Assembly (NCBI RefSeq): GCF_004300825.1
Contig: NZ_CP036250.1
Span: 1,488,001-1,552,000 of the forward strand
Source of the DNA: Egicoccus halophilus
GTDB taxonomy: Bacteria; Actinomycetota; Nitriliruptoria; Nitriliruptorales; Nitriliruptoraceae
Direction: 5' to 3'
Length of the DNA: 64,000 nt
This document shows positions 8,693-35,312 of the stretch, piece by piece. Position 1 is the stretch's first letter. Each line of letters begins with the position of its first letter. The notes under the pieces are model-generated. The model was not told the origin of the DNA and did no database searches. It was given only the letters and a program-made list of their open reading frames with translations. Position numbers and translations under genes: made by a program.

Positions 8693-8916
8693 GCGTCCAG
8701 TGTCACGGCTGCCAGTGACGTCGCCGCCAGTCCATCAGGAAGTCGTCGGCGACGACCCCGAGAGACGACGCCTCGGCCACGTCGAGCGCATGCGAGACAC
8801 CGGACGGCGTCGCACCCCGCACATCGACGGCGCCGCACCGCAGCGACGGGGGGAGAGCCTCGTCGGAGGGCCTCGCGGCTCGGGCCTCCTCGACGGTGGC
8901 CTCGCACGAAACGCAA

Positions 8917-8945
8917 GCCGGCCGCCCCCAGGGGGGACGACCGGC
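8917..8945 (-). terminator. Probable terminator downstream of the 45-aa membrane protein
   Basis: An imperfect inverted repeat: outer arms gccgg/ccggc and inner arms of four C/G pairs around a short loop, about 40 bp after the stop at 8986. There is no U-tract, as is common for GC-rich actinobacterial terminators. Confidence 0.4.
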
Positions 8946-8985
8946 GACATCGTACGGCCGGTGTGGCTGCCGGCTGCGGCTGCGG

Positions 8986-9123
8986 TCAGGCCGGGGCGAG
9001 TCCGGCAGCCTCACGCTGACGGGTCTCGCGACGCACCCAGGCGGCGAAGCCCTCCTCGACGGCGCGGAACGCGGCCCAGATACCGACCACGGCGGCGGCA
9101 GCGAGCTTGAACAGGTGGAGCAT
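8986..9123 (-). CDS. Small membrane protein (45 aa)
   Basis: ATG 9123 is preceded by a strong AGGAAGGA ribosome-binding site at optimal spacing, so this is very likely a real short gene. The 45-residue product has one hydrophobic segment (residues 5-20, 'FKLAAAAVVGIWAAFR') followed by a charged amphipathic tail with Glu and Arg ('WVRRETRQREAAG'). It probably sits in the cytoplasmic membrane with a cytosolic C-terminus. It is transcribed away from the palindrome array at 9272-9354 and divergently from the small lipoprotein gene at 9424. No family recognised. Confidence 0.6.
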   Translation of the reverse strand: MLHLFKLAAAAVVGIWAAFRAVEEGFAAWVRRETRQREAAGLAPA

Positions 9124-9271
9124 CGAGGTTCCTTCCTCGTCCGTTTGACCACCAGCGTGACGTGCCGGAGGCACATCGGCAAGATGGCAGCCGGCGACGG
9201 GCGCGGTGCGGTCCGGAGCATTCGCCGTGCGTCCCTCCCCACGCCCGGCGCCAGGGGGTCGCCCGGCGACG

Positions 9272-9354
9272 GGGCGACGCGTCGGTCGAGCCTGGGCGAC
9301 GCGTCGGTCCAGCCTGGGCGACGCGTCGGTCCAGCCTGGGCGACGCGTCGGTCG
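9272..9354. promoter_or_regulatory. Four phased palindromes (22-bp direct repeats) between divergent genes
   Basis: The 10-bp perfect palindrome cgacgcgtcg occurs at 9275, 9297, 9319 and 9341, each inside a 22-bp direct repeat that is almost identical in all copies (only g/c exchanges near the end of the unit). The spacing of 22 bp is close to two helical turns, so all sites face the same side of the helix. The array lies in the 300-bp region between the divergent genes at 9123 (minus) and 9424 (plus). This arrangement suits cooperative binding of a dimeric regulator; that role is inference. Confidence 0.6.
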
Positions 9355-9423
9355 ACGGCCGGCCGGGGAGGGGCGGTGGTGTGGGCGCCTACCGTGCGGC
9401 ACCCGCGAGCCTGGAGTCGTCCC

Positions 9424-9561
9424 ATGCGTGTCCGTGCGTCCTTGACCGCCCTGACGTTCGCCGTCGTGCTGTTCGGGTGCGACGACGCGGGCACCGAGGG
9501 CGGCCCCGTCCCGCTCGACGAGACCACCGAGTCGCCCGACGACGGCGCCGGCGACAACTGA
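9424..9561 (+). CDS. Small acidic lipoprotein (45 aa)
   Basis: ATG 9424 lies seven bases after a GGAG box. The N-terminus has basic residues, a hydrophobic stretch and a lipobox 'VLFGC' with Cys19, so the mature part would be a lipid-anchored peptide of only 27 residues, almost entirely Asp, Glu, Gly, Pro and Thr ('DDAGTEGGPVPLDETTES'). Such tiny acidic lipoproteins recur in this window (see 35384). Function unknown; it could be a surface spacer or simply a degenerate lipoprotein. It is just downstream of the phased palindromes, which may control it, and 27 bp upstream of the YgiN-like gene, with which it may be cotranscribed. Confidence 0.55.
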   Translation: MRVRASLTALTFAVVLFGCDDAGTEGGPVPLDETTESPDDGAGDN

Positions 9562-9588
9562 CCGTTCCGATTCGCGAAGGCTGCATCC

Positions 9589-9912
9589 GTGATCTTCATC
9601 ACCGCCAAGTTCCAGGTGAAGCCCGAGTCCGCCGACCGTTGGCCCGAGATCGCCTCGGCGTTCACCGCCGCGACCCGCGCCGAAGAGGGCTGTTTGTGGT
9701 TCGACTGGTCACGCTCGCTCGAGGACCCGCACGAGTACGTCCTCGTGGAGGCGTTCCGCGACGACGAGGCCGGCGCCGCCCACGTCAACTCCGACCATTT
9801 CCAGCAGGCCCGACGTGATCTGCCCCCGCACCTGCTCCACACCCCGAAGGTCGTGAACGTCACGCTCGACCAGAACGGGTGGTCGGAGCTGGGCGAGATG
9901 GCGGTCGACTGA
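9589..9912 (+). CDS. Antibiotic biosynthesis monooxygenase (ABM) domain protein, YgiN-like
   Basis: A 107-residue single-domain protein from GTG 9589. It fits the dimeric alpha+beta-barrel fold: 'IFITAKFQVKPESADRW' as first strand and helix, 'TRAEEGCLWFDWSRSLEDP' as the family's EPGC-like core, 'YVLVEAFRDDEAGAAHVNSDHF' with the conserved His-x3-Asp-H-F end. Members such as YgiN are quinol monooxygenases; others are heme-degrading or of unknown role, and the catalysis needs no cofactor. It is cytosolic. It probably shares a transcript with the lipoprotein gene upstream. The precise substrate is not predictable. Confidence 0.8.
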   Translation: MIFITAKFQVKPESADRWPEIASAFTAATRAEEGCLWFDWSRSLEDPHEYVLVEAFRDDEAGAAHVNSDHFQQARRDLPPHLLHTPKVVNVTLDQNGWSELGEMAVD

Positions 9913-10125
9913 GCGCGGTCCCGACGTCGCGTCGACGTCCGGCGGTCCGGACGCGGTTCGGCGTGATGTTCGTGTCACACCGCCGTGGTCGACTTCGGTT
10001 CGCGTGGGCACGGCCGGGGCGGCCGAGCGGCGTCGGGGAAGCGGTCGGTGAAGGCCACTTCTCCGACGCCGAGCCGACCAGGGGACGCGGTGCTCGCGGA
10101 CCGCGGGAGAGGGCAGGACACCGGC

Positions 10126-11091
10126 GTGGCCTCGTACACGACGTTCAGCTTCGAGGCGGCCGTCGTCGGTGACGGTGATGACGGCTACCCGGACGAGCTG
10201 GCACGCCTGGCCGCGGCGCTGTCGCAGGACGACGCCGAGGTGGTCCGGGAGGCCAGCGACGCCGTTCGCATCCGGCGTTGGCCGCTACCACCGCTGCCGT
10301 TGCATCGTCCGCCGGTCGCGAGCCGCGGGCGCAGCGGTGACGCGAGCCCGGTGACCATCGCCGCGATGTTCGCCCGTGACGGCTACCGGTGCCGCTACTG
10401 CGGCACCCGCACCGTCGCCCGTGAGGCGCTCGAGGCGATGGCCGCCGCCGCGATGCGCTTCGGTCCGGACGTCTTCCCGCGTGCCCCCGGCTGGCGCATG
10501 GACGGCACGCATCCGGCGTTCTACTGGCAGTACGCCACGGACGACCACCTGCTCGCCGCCTCGGTCGGTGGTCCGGCCGACGACCTCGACAACCTCGTCA
10601 GCGCCTGCTGGCCCTGCAACGTGCGCAAGGGCAACGCGACGCTCGAACAACTCGGTTGGGGGCCGCCGTTGCCGCCGCGGCACGACCTCGACGGTTGGGA
10701 CGGCCTGGTCTCGCGGGTCGACGGGCTGAGCCGGCGCGCCGCTGAACGCCGGGCCGTCGCCGCCGACGTGCTCTCGAGCATCGCTGACCGACGTCGCTCG
10801 GTTCGGACCGCCGTCTCTGGCGACGTCTGGCGGCGCAACACCCGAGGCGCGTACGCGACCCGTCGGATCGACGGCTCGCCGCCGTCCTGGGAAGCGCGCA
10901 ACGGCCGCTGGCGGGTGGTCCGCGTCGCCGAGGACCCCCGGACCTATGACCTCGAACGGCGCACCGACGACCGGTGGGTGTACTTCGGCGTGTTCCGCTC
11001 GTCGGACCGGGCACTGCGGATCGCCGCCGAGGTCGACATCGCCGACGGGATCCGGCCCGAGGTGCTGCCCGGCGACTTCCGACCGCGCTGA
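10126..11091 (+). CDS. HNH endonuclease-domain protein
   Basis: GTG 10126 follows an AGGA box by seven bases, giving 321 residues. The HNH/zinc pattern is complete: first Cys pair 'YRCRYCG' near residue 86-92, the catalytic 'TDDHLLAAS' near 139-146, then 'DNLVSACWPCNVRKGN' with the Asn and second Cys pair near 155-170. The gap between Cys pairs is unusually long (about 70 residues) and contains a Trp/Phe-rich insert ('GWRMDGTHPAFYWQYA'). The C-terminal ~140 residues have Trp-rich beta elements of unknown role. It should be a metal-dependent nuclease acting on DNA. No methylase or toxin partner is adjacent, so a restriction role is not supported. Confidence 0.8.
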   Translation: MASYTTFSFEAAVVGDGDDGYPDELARLAAALSQDDAEVVREASDAVRIRRWPLPPLPLHRPPVASRGRSGDASPVTIAAMFARDGYRCRYCGTRTVAREALEAMAAAAMRFGPDVFPRAPGWRMDGTHPAFYWQYATDDHLLAASVGGPADDLDNLVSACWPCNVRKGNATLEQLGWGPPLPPRHDLDGWDGLVSRVDGLSRRAAERRAVAADVLSSIADRRRSVRTAVSGDVWRRNTRGAYATRRIDGSPPSWEARNGRWRVVRVAEDPRTYDLERRTDDRWVYFGVFRSSDRALRIAAEVDIADGIRPEVLPGDFRPR

Positions 11092-11367
11092 ACCGTCGTC
11101 GTCGGTCCTCGCCGGCGGCACGCGAGCGGGTTCCGACGTTGCACACCCGCCGGATCCGTCGGCTGGGCAGGTCAGGGCCCTCGTTTCGGCCGCGCCCCCA
11201 TGTACCCGTGCGTACCCGGCTGCGTACCCGGCTGCGCCCGGCGTGGGCTGGGACGGCGTCTCACGGACCGGTGTCGTGGTGCTCTGTTAGCGTCCCGGAC
11301 GGTCGCGTCCGCGCCGGTCGGGAGCCCGGTGACCAGCGGCGGCCATGCCTGGGAGAGGGAGAGCACC

Positions 11368-13497
11368 GTGCAATGTCGTACGCGACGGTGGCGCCGAGGC
11401 GCCACCATCCTGGCCGTCGCGGGTCTGTTCGCCGCGACCCTGCCAGTCGCCGCCAGCGCCAGTCCGGAACGGGGTCCCGATGGGAACGGACCACCGGGGC
11501 AGGACCGGGCGTTCACCGTCGAGGCGCTGTCGACCCGGGCCGACATGGTCACCGGCGGTGACGTGCTCGTCGGCATCGACGTGCCCCGGAACGTGCCCCA
11601 GCACCAGGTCCGGGTGCTGGCCGCCGGACGCGACGTCTCGGACGCCTTCACCCCCGATCCGTCCGACCCTCGCCGGCTCGTCGGGCTCGTGGAGGGCCTG
11701 CGTCCCGGCACGAACACCATCCGGGTCAGCGGCACCGGCAACGGCCAGGGGCGGCCCACCGCTGCCCTCGAGGTCGTCAACCACCCGAGCAGCGGCCCGG
11801 TGTTCTCCGGCCCGCACCAGACGCCGTTCTCCTGCACCACCGAGCAGGCCGGTCTGGGTACACCGACCGACCCGGCGACCTGCGCGGTGCCGGCCCAGGT
11901 GGTCTGGTACTACCGCACGACGGGTGGCAGCTTCCAACCGCTGGCCGACCCGCAGGACCGCCCGTCCGACCTGGCCACGACCACGACCCGCGACGGACGC
12001 ACCGTCGACTACGTCGTGCGGGTCGAGAGTGGCGTCATCAACCGTTCGATCTACCGCTTCGCCGTGCTCGCCGAGGGCGGTGAGGTCGGTGCCGGCTGGA
12101 ACGGTGGGCTGGTCTACAACTTCGGCGGCGGGTGCGGCACCGGATTCCATCAGGGTTCGCTCAGCCTGGGCACCGTGCTCAGCGACGCGGAACTCTCGCG
12201 CGGCCTCGCCGTCGCCTCCGGCAGCCTCAACGTGCACGGCACCGCCTGCAACGCGGTGCTGTCGGCCGAGACCGCGATGATGGTCAAGGAGCACGTGACC
12301 GAAGAACTGCGCACCGTCCCGCGCTGGACGATGGGCACCGGTGGCTCCGGCGGTGCCATCCAGCAGCACCTCATCGCCAACGACTATCCGGGCATCCTCG
12401 ACGGGCTGGTGCCGCAGCTGACCTTCCAGGACTCGCAGCTCAGCGAACCGGCCGACTGCCGCCTGCTGCGCCGCGCCTTCGCCGGCAGCGGCCTGAGCCC
12501 CGCCCAACAGAACGCGGTGACCGGCTACCACACCGCCACGTCGTGTCTGCTGTGGGACCTCGCCTTCGCCGACGTGCTGGTCGCGCCCACCGGGTGCTCG
12601 TCCAACGTGCCCGTCGCGGAGCGCTACCACCCGGTGACCAACCCGGACGGGGTGCGTTGCACCACCTTCGACTCGATGATCAACGTCTGGGGCGCCGATC
12701 CCGAGACCGGCTTCGCCCGACGTGTGTTCGACAACGTCGGCGTCCAGTACGGGCTCGGGGCACTGCAGGCGGGCACCATCGGCGTCGAGCAGTTCCTCGC
12801 CGTCAACGAACGCGTCGGCGGCTTCGACCAGGACGGCAACGTCGTCGGCGAGCGGTCGGTCGCGGACCGCGACGCGCTCGAGATCGCGTACGCGACCGGC
12901 CAGATGGCACTCGGCGGCGCGCTGTCCGACGTCCCGATCCTCGACGTGCGCCCGTACACCGATCCAGCCGACTTCCACACCTACAGCCACACGTTCACCG
13001 TGCGTGAACGGTTGGAGGACGCCTTCGGCCACGCCGACAACCAGGTGATGTGGCGGGCGCCGTCGGGCAGCGTCGGCAACGCCGCCATGCAGGGCCGCTG
13101 GTTGGACACCATGGCGGACTGGTTGGATGCGATCGCCGCCGACGCCTCGGGTCGCCCGTTGGCCGAGGTGGTCGTCGACCGCCGGCCCGACGATGCCGTC
13201 GACAGCTGTTGGACCCGTGAAGGGGAGCGCATCCTCGAGGTCGCCGAGTACGGCGTGTTCGGTCAGTGCGAGACGCTGATGCCGCCGGCGGCGACGCCGC
13301 GGATCGTGGCCGGCTCCTCGGTCGCCTCCGACGTCATCGCCTGCACGCTGCGACCGGTCGACCTCGAGGAGTACGGGGTCGAGTTCACCCCGACGCAGCA
13401 CGAGCGCCTGCACTCGCTGTTCCCCGACGGGGTGTGCGACTGGGAGGCGCCCAGTGTCGGACAGGTGCCGTTCGCCGGGACCTGGCCCCGCTACTGA
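11368..13497 (+). CDS. Secreted DUF6351 protein (putative hydrolase)
   Basis: GTG 11368 with a GGGAGAGGGAG box gives 709 residues. An N-terminal signal peptide (Arg-rich, then 'ATILAVAGLFAATLPVAASA') predicts export. The mature N-terminus 'FTVEALSTRADMVTGGDVLVGI' and the following 'GRDVSDAFTPDP' are hallmarks of DUF6351 proteins. Around 320-335, 'WTMGTGGSGGAIQQHLIAND' resembles a nucleophile elbow of an alpha/beta-hydrolase (tannase/feruloyl-esterase-like), Ser near 327. Many Cys pairs probably form disulfides outside the cell. The family has no firm biochemical function as far as I know; an esterase role is inference. It stands alone, preceded by a repeat-rich leader with two copies of cgtacccggctg. 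Confidence 0.75.
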   Translation: MQCRTRRWRRGATILAVAGLFAATLPVAASASPERGPDGNGPPGQDRAFTVEALSTRADMVTGGDVLVGIDVPRNVPQHQVRVLAAGRDVSDAFTPDPSDPRRLVGLVEGLRPGTNTIRVSGTGNGQGRPTAALEVVNHPSSGPVFSGPHQTPFSCTTEQAGLGTPTDPATCAVPAQVVWYYRTTGGSFQPLADPQDRPSDLATTTTRDGRTVDYVVRVESGVINRSIYRFAVLAEGGEVGAGWNGGLVYNFGGGCGTGFHQGSLSLGTVLSDAELSRGLAVASGSLNVHGTACNAVLSAETAMMVKEHVTEELRTVPRWTMGTGGSGGAIQQHLIANDYPGILDGLVPQLTFQDSQLSEPADCRLLRRAFAGSGLSPAQQNAVTGYHTATSCLLWDLAFADVLVAPTGCSSNVPVAERYHPVTNPDGVRCTTFDSMINVWGADPETGFARRVFDNVGVQYGLGALQAGTIGVEQFLAVNERVGGFDQDGNVVGERSVADRDALEIAYATGQMALGGALSDVPILDVRPYTDPADFHTYSHTFTVRERLEDAFGHADNQVMWRAPSGSVGNAAMQGRWLDTMADWLDAIAADASGRPLAEVVVDRRPDDAVDSCWTREGERILEVAEYGVFGQCETLMPPAATPRIVAGSSVASDVIACTLRPVDLEEYGVEFTPTQHERLHSLFPDGVCDWEAPSVGQVPFAGTWPRY

Positions 13498-24555: not shown

Positions 24556-27444
24556 TCAGGCCATGCCCGCCTCGGCGGGCCGCGGCGCGGGCGCCGAGTC
24601 GCGCTCCACCGGCGGTTCCCCGGGATCCGCGTGGTGGCGGCCCCACAGCACCAGCAGCGCCGGCTGCACGAACAGGCACGCCAGGACGGCGAAGACGATC
24701 ATCATGGTGCTGACGGCCCCGAACTGGCTGATCGGCGTCGACTCGGACAGCATCAGCACCGCGAACGCCAGTCCCGTCGTCACGGCCGACCCGATCAGCG
24801 CGGCACCGGTGTTGCGCAGCGTGTCGGTCACGGCATCGTCGGGGGCCAGACCTTCCTCGCGGGCCTCACGGAAGCGGTTGATCAGGTGGATGCCGTAGGG
24901 CACGCCGATGCCGACCGCGATCGAGGCGACGGTGGCGGTGAGCGCGTTGAACGCGAGCCCCAGCGGGTACATCGCCCCGAGCACCAGCACCAGCGCCACG
25001 GTGGAGGGCACGATGCCGATCAGGCCCAGCATCACGCTTCGCGAGCTGAACAGGGTCGCCGTCACCAGCAGCACCGCGGCGGCGGCGAGGCTGATGAGGA
25101 TCGCCCACAGCTGCGCGGCCGACAGCGACTCGATGATCTCGGCCTGCATCAGTGGATTGGAGACGACCGTGACCTCGCCACCGGCGTCCTGCATCGGCTC
25201 GGCGGCGTCGCGCAGGTCGTCGGCCAGTGCCTCGGCGCCCTCGGAACCGGCGGCGGTCGACACGATCAGGACCACGCCGTCGGCGTCCATCAGCCGGCCC
25301 AGGTCCTCGGGCTCGTAGGTGGCGACGACGTCGAGCTGGGACCGCAGCGACGGGCCGTCGACGGGACGTTCGCCTCCCGCGGGTGCCTCCCAGCCGGCGG
25401 CCTCGAGGTCTTCGAGCAGTTCGAGCTGTCGACGTTCGTCCGCGTCGAGGCGGTCCAGTGGGTAGCCGGCGTCGGCCAGCGCACCCAGGGTGAGCTCCGA
25501 CGCGTCCCGCTCGGCGAGCTCGGCCAGCGTCGCGTCGTCGAGCGCGTCGGGACGCTCCGCGGCGATGTCGTCGGCCAGGGCGTCGCGGATCTGCCGGCGC
25601 AGTTCGTCCTGGTCGGAGGTCGCGATCATCGCCGCGGTCGGGGCACGGTCGGCCGGCAGGCGCGGCCGCAGAGCGTCGATCAGGTCCTGGGGGAGCTCGA
25701 CCGCCGCATCGTCCTGGCCCTCGACGAGCTCGGGGTCGATGGTGTCGGGCAACTCGATGCGGGCGGCGGCAGCCTGTGGGTCGCGCCAGTCGTCGAGCTC
25801 GTCGGCGATCCGGTCGCGCGCCCCCTCGGCCTGCTCGCCGAGCTGGTCGACGAAGCGGAACGGTGACTGCACCTGGGCCCGGTTGCCGGCGGTGCGCACG
25901 TCGTCGACGTCCGCGAGTCGGTTCTCGAAGGCCGCAACCGTGGCGAGCAGCTCCGGATCGCTCGGATCACCGTCGACGAGCACGTAGGTGCGCTCGCTGA
26001 CGTCACCGCCGAACTGCGCCTCGAGCCGGTCGAGCACGACGATGACCGGGTCGCCCTCGGGCAGGAAGTCGCGGTCGTCGAACTCGGTCGACAGCCCCGT
26101 GGCGGCGACCCCACCGGCGACCAGCAGCACGGCCGTGACGGCGAGGACCGGCGTGATGTGCCGGGTGGCGAGGTGGGTGGTCAGCTGCACCCAGCGGGGG
26201 TCGGTGCCAGCGACGCGCTTGGCGGCGGCCCCGGTCTCGTCGGCCTCGCCGGCGGCGTCGTGGCGACGGTCGAGCAGCACCCGGGTCGCAGGGACGAACG
26301 CCCCGAGGATGACGAATGCGGACACGATGCCGACCGCGGCGAGCACGCCGAAATCGGCGATCGGCGGCAGCGGCGTGACGATGTTGGCCAGGAACCCGGC
26401 GACCGAGGCGACGGTGGCCAGCACCAGGGCGACCCCGACCGTGCGCAGCGCGACGCGGGCGGCGTCGTCGGGGCGGTCGCCATGGGCCCGCTGTTCGCGG
26501 TAGCGCGAGGTGAGGTGTACCGAGTAGTCGATGCCCAGCCCGACGAGCAGGACCGGCACGGCGATGGAGATCTGGTTCATCGGTCCGATGAGCCCGAGGA
26601 ACTCCGGGCCGAGCAGCGCGCCGAAGCCGGCCATCCACACGATGGACGCGATCAGGCCGGTGAACCCGACCACGACGTCGGACACCGACCGGAACAGCCA
26701 GGCGAGCACGCCCAGCACGAGCAGCAGCGAGGTGCCGAGCAGCACCGGCAGGTCGCGCTCGAGTGCGCCCGCGATGCCGTCCTCGATGGCGGTCATCGAC
26801 AGCACCGACACGCGCAGGTCGGCGGTGTCGGTCTCCGCGGCGACCCGCTCGATGGCACGCGACGCCTCCGCGCGGACCTCGTAGGGCGCGGCGGTGTCGA
26901 GTTCCACCTGTACCAGGCCGCTGCGTGCGCGGGCGGGATCGGTCTCGAGGTCGTCGCTGAGCAGTCCCTCGATCTGGTCGCCGGCCTGCTCGGCGACGGT
27001 GTCGACGAACACCTGCAGGGTGCCGTCGTCGAAGTCGTCGAGGTCGGACGCGCCGTTCTCGAGGCCGGCGAGGAACGGCAGGCCCCAGGTGATGACGGCC
27101 GGTTCGTCGGAGCGGGACGGGGCGAACGCCGCGGCCACGGTCGTGTCACCGGCGAGGGCGTCCTCGAGTCGCTGGGCGACCTGGAGGCCGGTGCGGTCCA
27201 GCACGTTGCCCTGCGGACCGTCGTCGACCAGCAGCTGGACGCTGGCGACCGTGCCGAAGCGTTCCTCGATCGCGTCGAGGGTGGCCGCGGCGCCGCCCTC
27301 CGGCGCGAACGAGTCCATGCCGGTGTCGACCTCGAGGGTCGCGGCAGCGGCCCCGAGGCCGACCGTGGCGGCGAGCAGGCCGAGCAGGGTGAGGGCCGGG
27401 ACGCGGATCGCGATCCGCGCCAGCAGGTCCAGGACACGACTCAC
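24556..27444 (-). CDS. MMPL/RND-family membrane transporter
   Basis: Start chosen at GTG 27444, which overlaps the TGA of the TetR gene (GTGA); the longer frame to 27771 is antisense noise. 962 residues in two similar halves, each with one leading transmembrane helix, a large extracellular domain and a block of five more helices ('LLLVLGVLAWLFRSVSDVV', 'VPVLLVGLGIDYSVHL', then 'IAVGIGVPYGIHLINRF' in the second half). The 'GIDY' motif is typical of proton-coupled RND/MMPL carriers, which export lipids or hydrophobic compounds. The last gene of a three-gene coupled operon with a heptad-repeat surface protein and TetR. Substrate unknown; envelope lipid is a reasonable guess. Confidence 0.88.
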   Translation of the reverse strand: MSRVLDLLARIAIRVPALTLLGLLAATVGLGAAAATLEVDTGMDSFAPEGGAAATLDAIEERFGTVASVQLLVDDGPQGNVLDRTGLQVAQRLEDALAGDTTVAAAFAPSRSDEPAVITWGLPFLAGLENGASDLDDFDDGTLQVFVDTVAEQAGDQIEGLLSDDLETDPARARSGLVQVELDTAAPYEVRAEASRAIERVAAETDTADLRVSVLSMTAIEDGIAGALERDLPVLLGTSLLLVLGVLAWLFRSVSDVVVGFTGLIASIVWMAGFGALLGPEFLGLIGPMNQISIAVPVLLVGLGIDYSVHLTSRYREQRAHGDRPDDAARVALRTVGVALVLATVASVAGFLANIVTPLPPIADFGVLAAVGIVSAFVILGAFVPATRVLLDRRHDAAGEADETGAAAKRVAGTDPRWVQLTTHLATRHITPVLAVTAVLLVAGGVAATGLSTEFDDRDFLPEGDPVIVVLDRLEAQFGGDVSERTYVLVDGDPSDPELLATVAAFENRLADVDDVRTAGNRAQVQSPFRFVDQLGEQAEGARDRIADELDDWRDPQAAAARIELPDTIDPELVEGQDDAAVELPQDLIDALRPRLPADRAPTAAMIATSDQDELRRQIRDALADDIAAERPDALDDATLAELAERDASELTLGALADAGYPLDRLDADERRQLELLEDLEAAGWEAPAGGERPVDGPSLRSQLDVVATYEPEDLGRLMDADGVVLIVSTAAGSEGAEALADDLRDAAEPMQDAGGEVTVVSNPLMQAEIIESLSAAQLWAILISLAAAAVLLVTATLFSSRSVMLGLIGIVPSTVALVLVLGAMYPLGLAFNALTATVASIAVGIGVPYGIHLINRFREAREEGLAPDDAVTDTLRNTGAALIGSAVTTGLAFAVLMLSESTPISQFGAVSTMMIVFAVLACLFVQPALLVLWGRHHADPGEPPVERDSAPAPRPAEAGMA

Positions 27445-28082
27445 GAGACGGTTTCCTCCGTGAGCACGGGGGACCGCAGTACCCCGGCCAACAACAGTTC
27501 CATGGTCCGCGCGTCCATCTCGACACCGAGGTGGCGCAGCAGCTGTGCGCCGGTGATGGCGGCGAGGATGGCCCGCGTCAGGCGCAGCCGGTCGTGCGCC
27601 GCCGGCGTGGCGAGCGTCTCGTCGGCCTCGTCGAGCACGTCGTCGACGAAGCCCAGGGTCGAGTCCGTCAGCCGGGCGAGCAGCTGCTGGGCGTCGGTGT
27701 GCTCGTCGCGCAACCGCGCGAGCTCGACCAGCAGCAGCACCTCGGTGTGCGGGGGCTGATCGGTGAGCCACCGGGCGGCCTCACCGATGCGGTCCTCGTC
27801 GGAGGCGGCGAGGATGTCGGGCAGCACGCGGGCGAAGTCGCCCATGCGGACCGCCGACAGCTCCAGCAACAGCTCCGCCTTGTCGGAGAAGTTGGAGTAG
27901 AACGCGCCCCGTGAGTAGCCGGCACGCTCGGTGATCAGGTCGATCGAGGCACCCTCGAAGCCGTGCGAGGCGAAGACCTCGGCGGCGGCCTCGATCAGGC
28001 GCGCGCGGGTCTCGGCCTGCTGCTCGGCACGGGTGCGGCGGCGACGGCCCGCGCCGTGGCCGTCGGTGGTGTCGGCGCTCAT
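27441..28082 (-). CDS. TetR-family regulator of the MMPL operon
   Basis: ATG 28082 overlaps the TGA of the upstream gene; 213 residues. The helix-turn-helix is clear at about 25-70: 'ARLIEAAAEVFASHGFEGAS' then 'ITERAGYSRGAFYSNFSDKA', the classic TetR recognition segment. The C-terminal ligand domain is all-helical. Its stop overlaps the MMPL start. Because it sits inside the operon it presumably autoregulates the three genes, released by a ligand such as the transporter's substrate; that is inference. The operator should lie upstream of 30133. Confidence 0.88.
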   Translation of the reverse strand: MSADTTDGHGAGRRRRTRAEQQAETRARLIEAAAEVFASHGFEGASIDLITERAGYSRGAFYSNFSDKAELLLELSAVRMGDFARVLPDILAASDEDRIGEAARWLTDQPPHTEVLLLVELARLRDEHTDAQQLLARLTDSTLGFVDDVLDEADETLATPAAHDRLRLTRAILAAITGAQLLRHLGVEMDARTMELLLAGVLRSPVLTEETVS

Positions 28083-30133
28083 GCCCGGCTCCTGCGCTGC
28101 CAGAACCAGGCGCCACCGGCACCGGCGGCCACCACGGCGGCCAGCAGCCCCCACCACCACGGTGATCCGGGACGCTCGCCCGCATGGGCCAGGGCGTAGG
28201 AGACGGCGTCGGCGTCGTCGCCGGTCAGGGCATCGGCCCGCAGGCGTCCCTCGACCAGCAGGGCGTTGGTCGCGGCGCTGCGCTGACCGGCGCGGTCGGC
28301 GGTGGCGACGATCTCGTCCACGGCCTCGGGCAGCTCCGCGGCACCGTCGGCGAACTCGCCCAGCCCGTCGGCGAACTCGCCCAGTCCGTCGGCGAACTCG
28401 CCGGCGCCGTCGGCGGCCCCGACCGCGCCGTCGGCGAGCTGCCCCGAGCCGTCGTTGAGGGCCCCGGTGCCGGCGGCGAAGCCGGCCAGGCCGTCGGCGA
28501 GTCCGGCACTGCCGGCCGCCAGTTGTCCGGCACCACCGGCGAGCTCGTCGACCCCGGCGGCGAGTTGTCCGGCGCCACCGGCGAGCTCGTCGATCCCGTC
28601 GGCGAGTTGTCCGGCGCCGTCGGCGAGCGCGCCGGTGCCCTGGGTCGCGGCGCCGAGCCCGGCGGCGAGTTCCCGGTTGCCGGTGGCCAGCGCATCGACG
28701 CCGTCGGCCACCGCGTCGGCGCCGGCGGCCAGCTCGGTGAAGTTGGCGACCAGTCCGTCGGCGAAGGCCAGGACGCCCTCCACGGCCGCGCCGGCGTGCT
28801 CGAGGCCGTCGAGCACCTCCGGCGGGAGTTCGGCCAGCAGCTCCGGCGGGAGTTCGGCGAGGACGTCGGCTGGCAGCTGCTTCCCGACCGCCTCGCGCAG
28901 GCCGTCGCGCAGTTCGACGGCGCCGGCAGCGAGTTCACCGGTGCCCTCGGCCAGCTGACGGGCGCCGACGGCCAGTTCCCGGCCCCCGTCGGCCAGGTCG
29001 TCGGCGCCCGCGGCCGCGGTGCCCAGCTGGTCGGCCAGCTCCCGGGTGCCGGCGGCGACCGCCTGTGCTCCCTGCGCGAGCTGCGGCAGTCCGGCGGCCA
29101 GCTGCGCGGTGCCGTCGGCCAGCTCGGCACTGCCGGCGGCGAGCTGGGCATTGCCGGCGGCCAGTTCCGCGCCGCCGCCGGCCAGTTCCTGCGAGCCGTC
29201 GGCGAGCTCGTCCAGGCCAGCGTCGAGCTGTCCGACCCCGTCGGCGAGCTCGTCCAGCCCGCCGGCCAGTTCGTCGGCCCCCTCGGCGAGGGCGTCGCCG
29301 CCCTCGGCCAGGCCGTCGGCGCCCTCGACCAGGGCCTCGGCGCCGTCGCCGGTGAGGCTGGACAGGGCGGCCAGCACGGCGGCGCTGTCGCGATCGAGCA
29401 ACTCCTCGCTGAGGTCGACCTCGGCGTCGTCGGACAGGGGCGTGGCCTCCACGCGCACGTCAGGGGTACCGGCGCCCGGCACCGCCCCGACCTGGAGGGC
29501 CAGCTCGGTGCCCGTCAACGGCGGGAACAGCAGGTCGGTGGTGCTGACCTCGATCTCCTGCTCGGTGACCCGCACGGCCACCCCGTTGGCCGACGGGGCG
29601 GTGACCTCCCACGAACCCGGGTAGCGCAGCGTGACCGTCACCAGCTGCGGCACCCCCAGGCGCACCGAGCGCTCCTCGAGACCCTGCGGGCCGTCGACGG
29701 GAACGGTGGCTCGCCGGGCGGTCGTGTCGCGCACGGCGACGAGCGTGGTGACCGGTTCGGTCTGCTGCTCGAGCTGGTTGGCCTCCAACGACGTGCCGTC
29801 GGCGGCCTGGTGCAGGACGCTGGCCGCGACCGACAGGTTCGGCTCGTCGGTGCCGTCGAGGTCGCAGGCGACGCCGTCGACGACGAGCTGGCGACTGGTC
29901 TCGAGCACCTCGCCGTCGTCGGCGAGGCGAGCGGTGACCAGGGCGGCCGCGGGACGGTCGCCAACGTCCTCGCAGGCGAAGGCGGGGAGCGCACGCGCGC
30001 CGACCGCCACCCCGGTCACCCCGGCGAGGGCGAGGGCACCGATGGTGGTGGCGGCCACGGACGTGCGCGTGGGGCGACGGCGTGATGCGCGGCGTGCGTG
30101 GGCACGGCCGCGCGGCATCTCGGCAGGAGGCAT
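28079..30133 (-). CDS. Heptad-repeat (YhgE/Pip-like) membrane-anchored surface protein
   Basis: 684 residues from ATG 30133 (TTG 30139 is another option; both have weak ribosome-binding sites). An N-terminal hydrophobic segment ('TIGALALAGVTGVAVGARAL') is followed by a ~230-residue beta-rich ectodomain, then about 330 residues of Ala/Gly/Leu-rich heptads of the type 'ELADGAGQLA', and a C-terminal transmembrane helix ('WWWGLLAAVVAAGAGGAW') with a short Arg-rich tail. These heptads match the YhgE/Pip repeat region, but the ABC-2-type membrane domain usual in those proteins is missing. It is translationally coupled (ATGA) to TetR and, through it, to MMPL. Likely an extracytoplasmic partner of the transporter; inferred from the operon. 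Confidence 0.75.
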   Translation of the reverse strand: MPPAEMPRGRAHARRASRRRPTRTSVAATTIGALALAGVTGVAVGARALPAFACEDVGDRPAAALVTARLADDGEVLETSRQLVVDGVACDLDGTDEPNLSVAASVLHQAADGTSLEANQLEQQTEPVTTLVAVRDTTARRATVPVDGPQGLEERSVRLGVPQLVTVTLRYPGSWEVTAPSANGVAVRVTEQEIEVSTTDLLFPPLTGTELALQVGAVPGAGTPDVRVEATPLSDDAEVDLSEELLDRDSAAVLAALSSLTGDGAEALVEGADGLAEGGDALAEGADELAGGLDELADGVGQLDAGLDELADGSQELAGGGAELAAGNAQLAAGSAELADGTAQLAAGLPQLAQGAQAVAAGTRELADQLGTAAAGADDLADGGRELAVGARQLAEGTGELAAGAVELRDGLREAVGKQLPADVLAELPPELLAELPPEVLDGLEHAGAAVEGVLAFADGLVANFTELAAGADAVADGVDALATGNRELAAGLGAATQGTGALADGAGQLADGIDELAGGAGQLAAGVDELAGGAGQLAAGSAGLADGLAGFAAGTGALNDGSGQLADGAVGAADGAGEFADGLGEFADGLGEFADGAAELPEAVDEIVATADRAGQRSAATNALLVEGRLRADALTGDDADAVSYALAHAGERPGSPWWWGLLAAVVAAGAGGAWFWQRRSRA

Positions 30134-30267
30134 GCGCAAGGAACCTGGAGGAGAGAGGAGGCAGCCGGCGAGTCGGCTTGGGATACGTCACTGTATCCCA
30201 GTTCGTCGGCGCCTTCGGTGCGGCGTCGAGCGTCGGCCGTCGAGGCGACCACCTGCCGCACGTCGCC

Positions 30268-31585: not shown

Positions 31586-32644
31586 GTGGAGTACCGCACG
31601 CTCGGCCGCAGCGGCTGCGTCGTCTCGCACCTCGCCCTGGGCACCATGACCTTCGGGCAGGAGACCGACGAGACCGGTGCCCACGAACAGCTCGACCGTT
31701 ACGCGGACGCCGGCGGGAACCTGATCGACACCGCCGACGTCTACAGCGGCACGGTGTCGGAGGAGATCATCGGGCGCTGGCTCGCCGACCGACCCGCCCG
31801 CGTGCGCGACGCGATGGTCATCGCCTCCAAGGGCCGGTTCCCGACCGGTGAGGACGTCAACGACCTCGGTCTGTCGGCACGTCACCTCGGTCGAGCACTC
31901 GATGCCTCGCTGCACCGGCTGGGCGTGGACACCATCGACCTCTACCAGGTCCACAGCTTCGATCCGTTGACGCCGATCGAGGAGACCTTCCGCTTCCTCG
32001 ACGACGCGGTGCGCGCCGGCAAGATCCGCTACGTCGGGCTGTCGAACTACACCGGCTGGCAGCTGCAGAAGGTCGTCGACCGCTGCGAGTTCCGCGGCTG
32101 GTCCGTCCCGGTCACCCTGCAGCCGCAGTACAACCTGCTGGTCCGCGAGATCGAGTGGGAGATCGTGCCCGCCTGCGAGGACAACGGCCTCGGACTGCTG
32201 CCGTGGTCGCCGCTGGGCGGTGGATGGCTGACCGGCAAGTACTCCCGTGACGAGACGCCGTCGGGTGTCACCCGCCTCGGGGAGGACCCCGAACGCGGCA
32301 TGGAGGCCTACAGCCGTCGCTCGGCGCTCGATCGCACGTGGGACACCATCGACGTGGTCCGGGCCATTGCCGAGGACCGCGGGGTGAGCATGGCGCAGGT
32401 GGCGCTGGCCTGGGTCGCCCAGCGCCCGATGGTCACCTCCGTCATCCTCGGTGCCCGCACCACCGAGCAGCTCGACGACAACCTCGCGGCGGCCGGGCTG
32501 CGGCTCGACGACGACGAGATGGCGCGGCTCGACGGGGTCAGCGCACCGCCGGTCGCCGACTACCCCTACGGCGCTCCCGGCGTCGCCCAGCGCAGCCGCG
32601 CACTGCCCGCCTCCGCCGGGTCGGACGGCGACGGGCAGGACTGA
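31586..32644 (+). CDS. Aldo/keto reductase (Kv-beta/YghZ-like)
   Basis: GTG 31586 follows a GGAG box; 352 residues. The N-terminus 'YRTLGRSGCVVSHLALGTM' is typical of the YghZ/Kv-beta group. The catalytic set is present: 'IDTADVYSGTVSEE' (Asp and Tyr), 'MVIASKGRF' (Lys) and 'DLYQVHSFDP' (His). The 'VILGARTTEQLDDN' element contacts NADPH near the C-terminus. Cytosolic reductase of aldehydes or ketones; substrate unknown. It is divergent from the broken DUF429 gene. The CorA remnant starts seven bases after its stop in the same frame. Confidence 0.88.
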   Translation: MEYRTLGRSGCVVSHLALGTMTFGQETDETGAHEQLDRYADAGGNLIDTADVYSGTVSEEIIGRWLADRPARVRDAMVIASKGRFPTGEDVNDLGLSARHLGRALDASLHRLGVDTIDLYQVHSFDPLTPIEETFRFLDDAVRAGKIRYVGLSNYTGWQLQKVVDRCEFRGWSVPVTLQPQYNLLVREIEWEIVPACEDNGLGLLPWSPLGGGWLTGKYSRDETPSGVTRLGEDPERGMEAYSRRSALDRTWDTIDVVRAIAEDRGVSMAQVALAWVAQRPMVTSVILGARTTEQLDDNLAAAGLRLDDDEMARLDGVSAPPVADYPYGAPGVAQRSRALPASAGSDGDGQD

Positions 32645-32650
32645 CCTCCG

Positions 32651-32812
32651 GTGGGACTCGCCGTGGCCCGCTTCGTCGACGGCGTCTCCGGCAGGAACTT
32701 CGCGCACATGCCCGAACTCACCTGGAGGTACGGCGATCACGCCGTGCTGGTGGCCATGGCGACGATCTGCCTGGCCCTGTACCGCCTGTTCAAGCGCAGC
32801 GGCTGGCTGTAG
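32651..32812 (+). pseudogene. Remnant of a CorA magnesium transporter (C-terminal 53 residues)
   Basis: A 53-codon frame from GTG 32651 to TAG 32810-32812. It aligns with the extreme C-terminus of CorA: 'VSGRNFAHMPELTWRYGDHA' corresponds to the pore-mouth loop (normally Gly-Met-Asn-Phe then Met-Pro-Glu-Leu), followed by one hydrophobic helix and the typical end 'LYRLFKRSGWL'. The signature Gly-Met-Asn is changed to Gly-Arg-Asn. The large cytosolic domain and the first pore helix are missing, and the upstream DNA is the aldo/keto reductase, so this cannot be a working channel. Either a deletion remnant or a small membrane protein reusing the domain. Confidence 0.7.
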
Positions 32813-32946
32813 CGCCGTGTCGAGGCCCCGTGGCCGCGCTCCGGGCAGCCGGCTTGCGTCGTGGCGCACCGTCGCGCACGGTGGGGACCCGCCCGGCGGC
32901 GAGCCGGCGGGCGCCGGAGGACCAGCTCGCGAACGGGAGCAGAATC

Positions 32947-33609
32947 GTGCACTTCGCCGACCGGACCGACGCCGGCCACCGGCTGGCCGACCTCCTGCGC
33001 GCCCGGGAGCTCGACGACCCGGTCGTGCTGGCACTGCCGCGCGGCGGGGTGCCAATCGCTGCACCCGTCGCGGCCGCGCTCGACGCGCCGCTCGACGTCG
33101 TCGTCGTACGCAAGCTCGGTGCTCCCTCGCAGCCGGAGCTCGCCATCGGCGCCATCGCCGAACCGGACGTGCGTGTCCTGGACGCCACCATGGTCGAACG
33201 GCTGCGCCTCGACGAGGGCGCGCTCGCCGCGGTCGAGGCGACCGAGCGGCGGGAGCTCGAGCGGCGCGTCCACCGCTATCGACAGGGACGGCCGCTGCCA
33301 CCGTTGACCGGTCGGAGCGTGGTGGTGGTCGACGACGGGCTCGCGACCGGCGCGACCGCCGTCGCCGCCTGCCGAGCGGTGCGCGCCGGTCGACCGGCAC
33401 GGCTCGTCCTGGCCGTCCCGGTCGGCGCGGCCTCCGGTGTCCGTGCGCTGGCCGAGGAGGTCGACGAGGTGGTGTGTCCGGTCGTGCCCGACGCCTTCCG
33501 TGCGGTGGGGCAGTGGTACACCGACTTCGCCCAGACCAGCGACGAGGAAGTGCTCGCCCTGTTGGCGGCTCACCAGGCCGAGACGTCCGACACCGACGCG
33601 CCCAGGTAG
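32947..33609 (+). CDS. Phosphoribosyltransferase-domain protein
   Basis: GTG 32947 follows a GGGAG box; 220 residues. The PRPP-binding signature 'VVVVDDGLATGAT' is clear at about residues 118-130, with the upstream 'LALPRGGVPIAAPVA' and 'VVVRKLGAPSQPELAIGAIAE', a pattern shared by the erythromycin-esterase-linked and stand-alone PRT proteins of actinobacteria. It should bind PRPP in the cytosol, though its acceptor base is unknown and it lacks the specific hoods of Apt, Hpt or PyrE. The last 40 bp overlap the convergent SRPBCC gene. Confidence 0.85.
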   Translation: MHFADRTDAGHRLADLLRARELDDPVVLALPRGGVPIAAPVAAALDAPLDVVVVRKLGAPSQPELAIGAIAEPDVRVLDATMVERLRLDEGALAAVEATERRELERRVHRYRQGRPLPPLTGRSVVVVDDGLATGATAVAACRAVRAGRPARLVLAVPVGAASGVRALAEEVDEVVCPVVPDAFRAVGQWYTDFAQTSDEEVLALLAAHQAETSDTDAPR

Positions 33610-34049
33610 TCCGCCAGCGCGCAGGCGCCGGCCGACATCGCCCGGTCGTGGCTCCAGCGCAGCACCGGTCGGCCGATCGGCGCCAGCAGGTTCATCCACG
33701 CGGGCGTGGTGCGGACCTGCCACCGGAAGCGGATGGCGGTCTGCTCGCCGTCGTCCCACATGCGCCACAGGCCGTGCCCCTCGAGGTCACCGCGCGCCTC
33801 CCACTCCAGCAGGCAGGGCCACTCGGCCCGCACGGTGGTCATCTGCCAGGTGAGCGTGTAGGGCAGGGCGGCGCGAACGGTGCCGCGGTGCACGGCACCG
33901 ACACCGTCCACGTCACCGGCGACGAGCTGTTCGACGTCGGACACCCGGTCCCAGCCGGCCAGGAAGTCGTACGGCTCGACCAGGACGGCGAAGACCCGCT
34001 CGGAGGGCGCGTCGAGGGTGAAGGCGGTCTGCAGGTCGTACCAGGCCAT
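33570..34049 (-). CDS. SRPBCC-family (START-like) protein
   Basis: 159 residues from ATG 34049. The pattern of a helix-grip fold is visible: 'FTLDAPSERVFAVLVEP' as first strand and helix, central beta strands ('YTLTWQMTTVRAEWPCLLEW', 'GHGLWRMWDDGEQTAIRFRW'), then the long C-terminal helix 'RPVLRWSHDRAMSAGACALA'. Such proteins carry a hydrophobic pocket and act as cyclases, lipid or ligand binders. Ligand unknown, cytosolic. Its 3' end overlaps the phosphoribosyltransferase gene by 40 bp in convergent orientation, so antisense interference is possible. Confidence 0.8.
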   Translation of the reverse strand: MAWYDLQTAFTLDAPSERVFAVLVEPYDFLAGWDRVSDVEQLVAGDVDGVGAVHRGTVRAALPYTLTWQMTTVRAEWPCLLEWEARGDLEGHGLWRMWDDGEQTAIRFRWQVRTTPAWMNLLAPIGRPVLRWSHDRAMSAGACALADYLGASVSDVSAW

Positions 34050-34274
34050 CGACGTCCTGTTCGGTCTCGGCGGAGCTGTCGTCCTGGCGGCACACGCTGC
34101 CCACGGCGCCCCAGGGCAGCACGTCGGTGCCCCGGCTGTCTGTCGGCCGGCTCCGGTCGAAGGGGACCGCCCTGGCCGTGGTGTGCCCGTCCGGCCGGGC
34201 CACCCGGGCACCAGCAACCGCGGGTGCTGGCCGATCCTGGCCGGACCGTCGACGACGAGCGCCTCGGAGGTCCC

Positions 34275-35312
34275 GTGTCTTCTGCTCGACCCGTGCTCGA
34301 GGTCCCCGATCCAGGACTGGTGGTCCTGGCCGGCCCGGCCGGCTGCGGCAAGTCGAGCTTCGCCGCCCGCCACTTCGCCGCCGCCGACGTCGTCTCGTCC
34401 GATCACGCCCGCGAGCTCGTCTCCGGTGACGCCGACGACCAGGGAGCGACGGCCGACGCGTTCGGTCTGCTCCGGTTCCTGCTCGACAAGCGGGCGCGCC
34501 GACGCCGCTTCACCGTGGTCGACGCGACCAACACGACCCGACGGGAGCGGGCCCGTCTGCTCGGCACGGCGCGGCGGCACGACCTGCCGGCCGCGCTCAT
34601 CGCCCTCGACCTGCCACTGGAGATCTGCCGGCGACGTGCGGCGGCACGTCGGGAGCGCCCGGTCGCCGCCGACGTGGTCGAACGCCAGCACGCCACCTTC
34701 GCGCGGCAGGTGCCGGGGCTCACCGACGAGGCGTTCGCCGTCGTGCACGTGCTGTCGTCGGCCGACGCCGTCGATGCCGCCACCGTGGTCCGTCGAGTGC
34801 CCGTCGCGCTCCCGGCACCACCAGCGAACGTCGCGGCGGACCACCGTGCCGGCCGGCCTCCCGCCGTCGTCGTCGACCTCGACGGCACGCTGACCTCCGC
34901 GGCCTGGCGCGAGCACCACCTGGCGGGGCCGGGACGCAAGGACTGGCCGGCGTTCTTCGCCGGCATGTCCCGTGACGCGCCGGTGCGAGCGCTGGTCGAC
35001 CTCGTCGGCTGGGTCGCCAATCATGCGGCGGTCGTGCTGCTCACCGGGCGCCCTGACGAGCACGAGGCCGTGATCCGGCGCTGGCTCGCGGACCACGACG
35101 TGCCCTACGACCGGTTGCTGATGCGCCGCCGAGGTGACCGTCGCCCCGACACGGTGGTGAAGCGGGAGTGCTACCGCGATCGGATCGCCCCGGTCTACGA
35201 CGTCCGTCTCGCCGTCGACGACCGGCCCGGCGTGATCGCGATGTGGCGCGAGGAGGGAATCTACGTCCTCACGGCGCTCGATCCACGGCTCGATCCCGCG
35301 CCGTCACGGTAG
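34275..35312 (+). CDS. Polynucleotide kinase-phosphatase-like protein
   Basis: GTG 34275, preceded by GGAGG; 345 residues in two domains. The N-terminal P-loop kinase has Walker A 'GPAGCGKS' (20-27), the Asp in 'VVDATNTTRRERARLLGTAR' and a LID-like Arg-rich helix, as in T4 Pnkp. The C-terminal HAD phosphatase has 'VVVDLDGTLT' with Asp201 and Asp203, 'VVLLTGRPDEHEAVIRRWL' as motif II, and 'LAVDDRPGVIAMW' as motif IV. Kinase-then-phosphatase order resembles T4 polynucleotide kinase, which heals 5'-OH and 3'-phosphate RNA or DNA ends. No ligase is adjacent; repair of tRNA or DNA ends is inferred. Confidence 0.85.
   Translation: MSSARPVLEVPDPGLVVLAGPAGCGKSSFAARHFAAADVVSSDHARELVSGDADDQGATADAFGLLRFLLDKRARRRRFTVVDATNTTRRERARLLGTARRHDLPAALIALDLPLEICRRRAAARRERPVAADVVERQHATFARQVPGLTDEAFAVVHVLSSADAVDAATVVRRVPVALPAPPANVAADHRAGRPPAVVVDLDGTLTSAAWREHHLAGPGRKDWPAFFAGMSRDAPVRALVDLVGWVANHAAVVLLTGRPDEHEAVIRRWLADHDVPYDRLLMRRRGDRRPDTVVKRECYRDRIAPVYDVRLAVDDRPGVIAMWREEGIYVLTALDPRLDPAPSR

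Follow-up and report, generated by a model that had tools for sequence, protein, structure and literature searches.

How RND/MMPL pumps deliver their cargo past a thick wall, when there is no outer membrane, is an open question. The closest described case is mycobacterial, in which MmpL5 carries a coiled-coil hairpin that is predicted to form a tube of 13 nm and is required for efflux, with MmpS acting as the adaptor (PMC12501195; PMC12346298). We have analysed a window of 64,000 nucleotides of DNA from a member of the Nitriliruptoraceae (Actinomycetota), whose genome is assembled as one contig of 3,980,161 bases, and in which the gene of an MMPL transporter shares an operon with those of a TetR-family regulator and of a protein with long heptad repeats (heptad protein). 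This conserved and unnamed partner, with its predicted wall-scale hairpin, makes the question testable beyond mycobacteria, and the analysis gives an architecture to a family that curated libraries recognise only by the heptad repeat or miss entirely.

The operon and its conservation

The initial annotation described a three-gene operon joined by ATGA and GTGA overlaps. Reading the junctions confirmed it: the genes all lie on the minus strand, and the letters are GGC-ATGA-GCG between the heptad gene and tetR, and CTC-GTGA-GTC between tetR and the MMPL gene. The features are as follows.

28079..30133 (-), heptad protein gene, 684 aa (686 aa from an alternative TTG start 6 bases upstream)
27441..28082 (-), TetR-family regulator gene, 213 aa, with an ATGA overlap with the heptad gene
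24556..27444 (-), MMPL/RND transporter gene, 962 aa, with a GTGA overlap with tetR
30180-30201 (no strand), palindrome TGGGATAC-GTCACT-GTATCCCA, candidate TetR operator/autoregulatory promoter

Heptad protein, TetR and MMPL are genetically coupled in this soda-lake actinobacterial group. Their order is intact in 17 of 17 readable loci of Nitriliruptoraceae, i.e., those in which the contig reaches far enough, that of the window included; the remaining N-terminal heptad fragments stop at contig edges within the repeats and stand outside the 17. The named relatives are Nitriliruptoraceae MAGs. The stop/start overlaps were also preserved in all 11 operons checked. The coupled operon with its own regulator that had been claimed is therefore borne out by its relatives, and the situation that would have spoken against it, heptad orthologues always away from MMPL genes, was not seen.

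The MMPL orthologue (at least 57% identity) was found in 18 genomes of the family, every one of which also has the heptad orthologue. The other genomes of the family lack both, except for one fragmented assembly with a heptad gene and no MMPL detected. In the MMPL tree the operon-type MMPLs form a single clade (SH-aLRT 100) and the heptad gene adjoins in 16 of 16 rows; one row labelled "no" begins at a contig edge and counts as neighbour unknown. Not all related MMPLs adjoin a heptad gene.

The regulator matched the TetR_N helix-turn-helix (PF00440) at 4.8e-15. The palindrome, conserved and overlooked in the initial annotation, is located in the interval that separates the heptad gene from its upstream neighbour. 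The upstream DNA could be placed for 14 orthologues, and every one of them carries the pattern GGATAC-N6-GTATCC, with small changes allowed, ahead of the heptad gene, even though most of the corresponding heptad proteins are only ~42% identical to this one. The exact match occurs once in the whole genome. This points to the palindrome as very probably the TetR operator, with a single promoter shared by all three genes; it is the phylogenetic footprint of a putative operator. Scans for sigma-70 promoters and terminators detected none, and an Rfam search gave no match. Elsewhere in the window there is an amidase gene (PF01425; 21212-22693, minus strand), on the same strand as the operon and ~1.9 kb downstream of it, and an ORF at 32451-35309 (plus strand) with a polynucleotide kinase-like AAA domain (PF13671) and a PNKP-type phosphatase domain (PF25109).

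The pump and the architecture of its partner

The MMPL protein matched PF03176 in two stretches, corresponding to two MMPL domains (4.1e-44; 151 bits against a cut-off of 20.5). Its TM segments fall in two groups, 230-455 and 770-937, with a further one close to the N-terminus. HAE3 (TIGR00921) was the best among the subfamily models with 245 bits, below the NCBI cut-off of 351.9 bits. The structural model (5 sequences) was of low confidence, pLDDT 44, and its fold search was uninformative, so that the one feature we take from it is that the better-scored insert 492-722 (the second periplasmic insert) has no long helix and contains short helices only. The MMPL seems to be devoid of a long hairpin of its own, the predicted hairpin being that of the partner. 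In the genomes inspected in passing, none of them from Bacillota, we came across no MMPL-heptad fusion.

The heptad repeats that had been noted in the partner are real and far above chance: the Leu lag-7 autocorrelation over residues 255-620 is 0.43, compared to a maximum of 0.23 in 10,000 shuffles, and TIGR03057 (xxxLxxG) matched in 10 stretches with 2.3e-35. The parts of the protein are given below.

Residues about 25-53, signal peptide (hydrophobic segment)
Residues 63-232, 29438..29947 (-), beta-sandwich domain, found across Actinomycetota
Residues 303-568, 28430..29227 (-), predicted long alpha hairpin (arms 303-419 and 438-568, tip 420-437)
Residues 643-650, closing beta strand
Residues 659-683, C-terminal TM helix

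AlphaFold2 (9 sequences) gave an N-terminal hydrophobic helix, the beta domain, two long helices, the late strand and the C-terminal TM helix, with a pLDDT of 65 overall and a pTM of 0.35. The ten-residue blocks of the beta domain, which no Pfam or NCBIfam model covers, were mostly between 60 and 90, and confidence in the predicted hairpin fold was moderate. The antiparallel arms would have ~120-130 residues each, equivalent to ~17.5 and 19.6 nm (0.15 nm per residue), and Gly amounts to 19% of the hairpin region. In the structure comparison, residues 61-232 together with the late strand aligned to mu2 adaptin, whose beta sandwich has two lobes (Z ~12, rmsd 3.6, 147 residues), from which the hairpin appears to be inserted into the beta domain. 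The best fold matches of the hairpin itself were SMC and chemoreceptor coiled coils, and MmpL5 matched weakly. As far as the models go, all these matches, mu2 adaptin among them, are a common shape with no implied relationship.

The ectodomain had been described as "coiled or beta-helical". The coiled part of this description stands, in the form of a predicted alpha hairpin on a beta sandwich, and the beta-helical part does not. We prefer helices to a beta-helix or beta-roll because AlphaFold predicts them and because in homologues the Gly heptads give way to a coiled-coil sequence of the ordinary kind, which matches SMC models. Searched against PDB sequences, the repeat matched, among others, a designed antiparallel coiled coil (8qae, 1.6e-11) and trimeric autotransporters. 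Anchoring at both ends, as proposed initially, is unlikely: the hydrophobic N-terminal segment closes with A-F-A, a good A-x-A signal-peptidase site directly before Cys54 that suits signal-peptide cleavage, and for this reason the mature protein may be held solely by its C-terminal TM helix. Within the family Cys54 and Cys90 do not vary, and the two could form a disulphide.

The wider family and the role of the heptad protein

With a profile of the beta domain we searched 396 genomes from across the phylum Actinomycetota and found relatives in 50 of them, and the closing C-terminal strand is common to the whole family. In five distant families each of 14 genomes has an MMPL next to a beta/coiled-coil protein; these carry only a few MMPL genes each, and chance adjacency in every case is therefore negligible. 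The MMPL of these 14 loci is short (~700 aa) and lies directly upstream of the beta/coiled-coil protein, and the MMPL-linked members in other families have no C-terminal TM helix. Most MMPL-linked partners have a helical span of 310-412 residues, with three longer exceptions (and disregarding a few spans spoilt by domain matches inside the repeats), as expected if length matters.

The host genome itself contains a second pair at 3.734-3.741 Mb, a beta/hairpin protein gene and an MMPL gene in divergent orientation (locus L065, 6226-9555 on the minus and 8874-12617 on the plus strand). A third beta/heptad paralogue, at ~385 kb (locus L047, 7085-10093, plus strand), is found upstream of tyrS without an MMPL, and the proteins like it at three loci of related genomes have no MMPL neighbour either. 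In addition, a large branch comprising four families pairs with DUF1097 instead of MMPL. At seven loci the beta-domain protein comes directly after a gene with 5-6 TM segments, which is DUF1097 (PF06496) where tested, and one of them has two tandem copies of the arrangement. The beta/hairpin module is therefore not committed to MMPL.

Our main reading, to which we give a probability of roughly 0.6, is that the TetR-autoregulated unit is a two-component exporter, in which the heptad protein is the pump's dedicated envelope-side accessory subunit. What supports it is the order kept in 17/17 loci with the overlaps in 11/11, the co-occurrence of both genes and the single MMPL clade (16/16 rows beside the heptad gene), the second pair in the genome with the 14/14 pairings in five distant families, the palindrome in 14/14 upstream regions and once in the genome, the hairpin modelled as an insert in a beta domain with a conserved closing strand, and the precedent of MmpL5 next to an MMPL model without a long hairpin. 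It is weakened by the paralogues without MMPL, the DUF1097 pairing and the MMPLs with no heptad neighbour, as well as by the moderate confidence of the hairpin, its Gly content and the missing C-terminal TM helix in members from other families. In such an exporter the MMPL protein would be a proton-driven RND pump, and the heptad protein would be exported via its signal peptide and then held by the C-terminal TM helix. We infer physical contact between them, in which the two-lobed beta domain would probably seat on the periplasmic domains of the pump, and a conduit, in which the antiparallel alpha hairpin of 17-20 nm, as an oligomer, would prolong the exit path across the wall zone. TetR, bound at the palindrome, would keep the three genes repressed until released by an inducer, perhaps the exported substrate, which could be an amphiphile or lipid.

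The same partner could instead be an envelope sensor or scaffold, co-regulated with the pump under wall or membrane stress and standing outside the transport path. That related beta/hairpin proteins stand alone or beside DUF1097, and that the best fold matches of the hairpin include chemoreceptors besides SMC, would suit this role, which we regard as unlikely all the same given that the heptad gene strictly co-occurs with, and adjoins, one MMPL clade and that five other families pair with a different, short MMPL subfamily. Much more improbable is a role of the heptad protein as substrate or as surface filament, exported or assembled by the neighbouring pump. It is exported, large and rich in repeats, and the MMPL-linked members of other families have no TM anchor; however, it has an ordinary Sec-type signal peptide and a TM helix of its own, with its conserved beta domain and closing strand it looks like a folded fixture, and known MMPL cargo consists of lipids and small molecules, not of 70-kDa proteins.

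Descent from YhgE/Pip by loss of the membrane domain is the least credible of all. The label "YhgE/Pip-type" holds for the shared xxxLxxG repeat (TIGR03057) and fails for membership of the family, the N- and C-terminal domains of which are absent: neither TIGR03061 and TIGR03062 nor ABC-2 matched the heptad protein at E<=1 (the absence of an ABC-2 membrane domain had been claimed correctly), whereas a true YhgE used as positive control matched all of these models. Besides, the N-terminal domain belongs to a separate family spread across the phylum.

Comparison with known systems

The locus is best placed among RND/MMPL export systems, with a pump of a known kind and a heptad partner that is new. 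We found no description of this pairing in the open-access papers that were searched, in keeping with the claim that it was undescribed. The heptad protein resembles YhgE/Pip and EsaA/YueB in that it has a long extracytoplasmic region with xxxLxxG heptads, and differs in having an unrelated beta domain and an MMPL neighbour instead of their N- and C-terminal domains. The likeness to HAE3/HpnN/MmpL3-type transporters is that of the MMPL gene product itself, and we know of no description of one with such a heptad partner.

AcrA-type periplasmic adaptors of Gram negative RND systems are likewise built as a beta-rich body with an inserted alpha hairpin, and are co-transcribed with the pump. The moderate-confidence model has this adaptor-like feature, with the strands of 63-232 and 643-650 around the hairpin 303-568. 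However, the heptad protein has no Pfam match to the HlyD/AcrA-type family, no outer membrane to reach and a C-terminal TM anchor, and the hairpin of AcrA is much shorter than the one predicted here. The fold list was made up of coiled coils and mu2-adaptin-like sandwiches and had no AcrA-type adaptor in it, an absence that excludes nothing.

The mycobacterial systems (MmpS5-MmpL5, MmpL4, MmpL10) resemble this one in combining an RND/MMPL pump with a coiled-coil hairpin rising from the membrane and with a partner from the operon that has a TM helix and a beta-sandwich domain, under the control of a transcriptional repressor. The MMPL described here is of another subfamily, its host is not mycobacterial, and the MmpS models of Pfam and NCBIfam gave no match to the heptad protein at E<=1. 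The main difference is in the distribution of the parts: in MmpL5 the hairpin is within the pump and MmpS has the beta domain only, whereas here hairpin and beta domain are apparently both on the separate partner. Tentatively, and with the odds somewhat against it, monoderm actinobacteria might have a third RND solution, a dedicated subunit that unites beta sandwich and alpha hairpin in a single chain and has no relation to AcrA-type adaptors or MmpS, drawn from a widespread unnamed family that would also dock on DUF1097, and supplying in trans the coiled-coil tube that is built into MmpL4/5.
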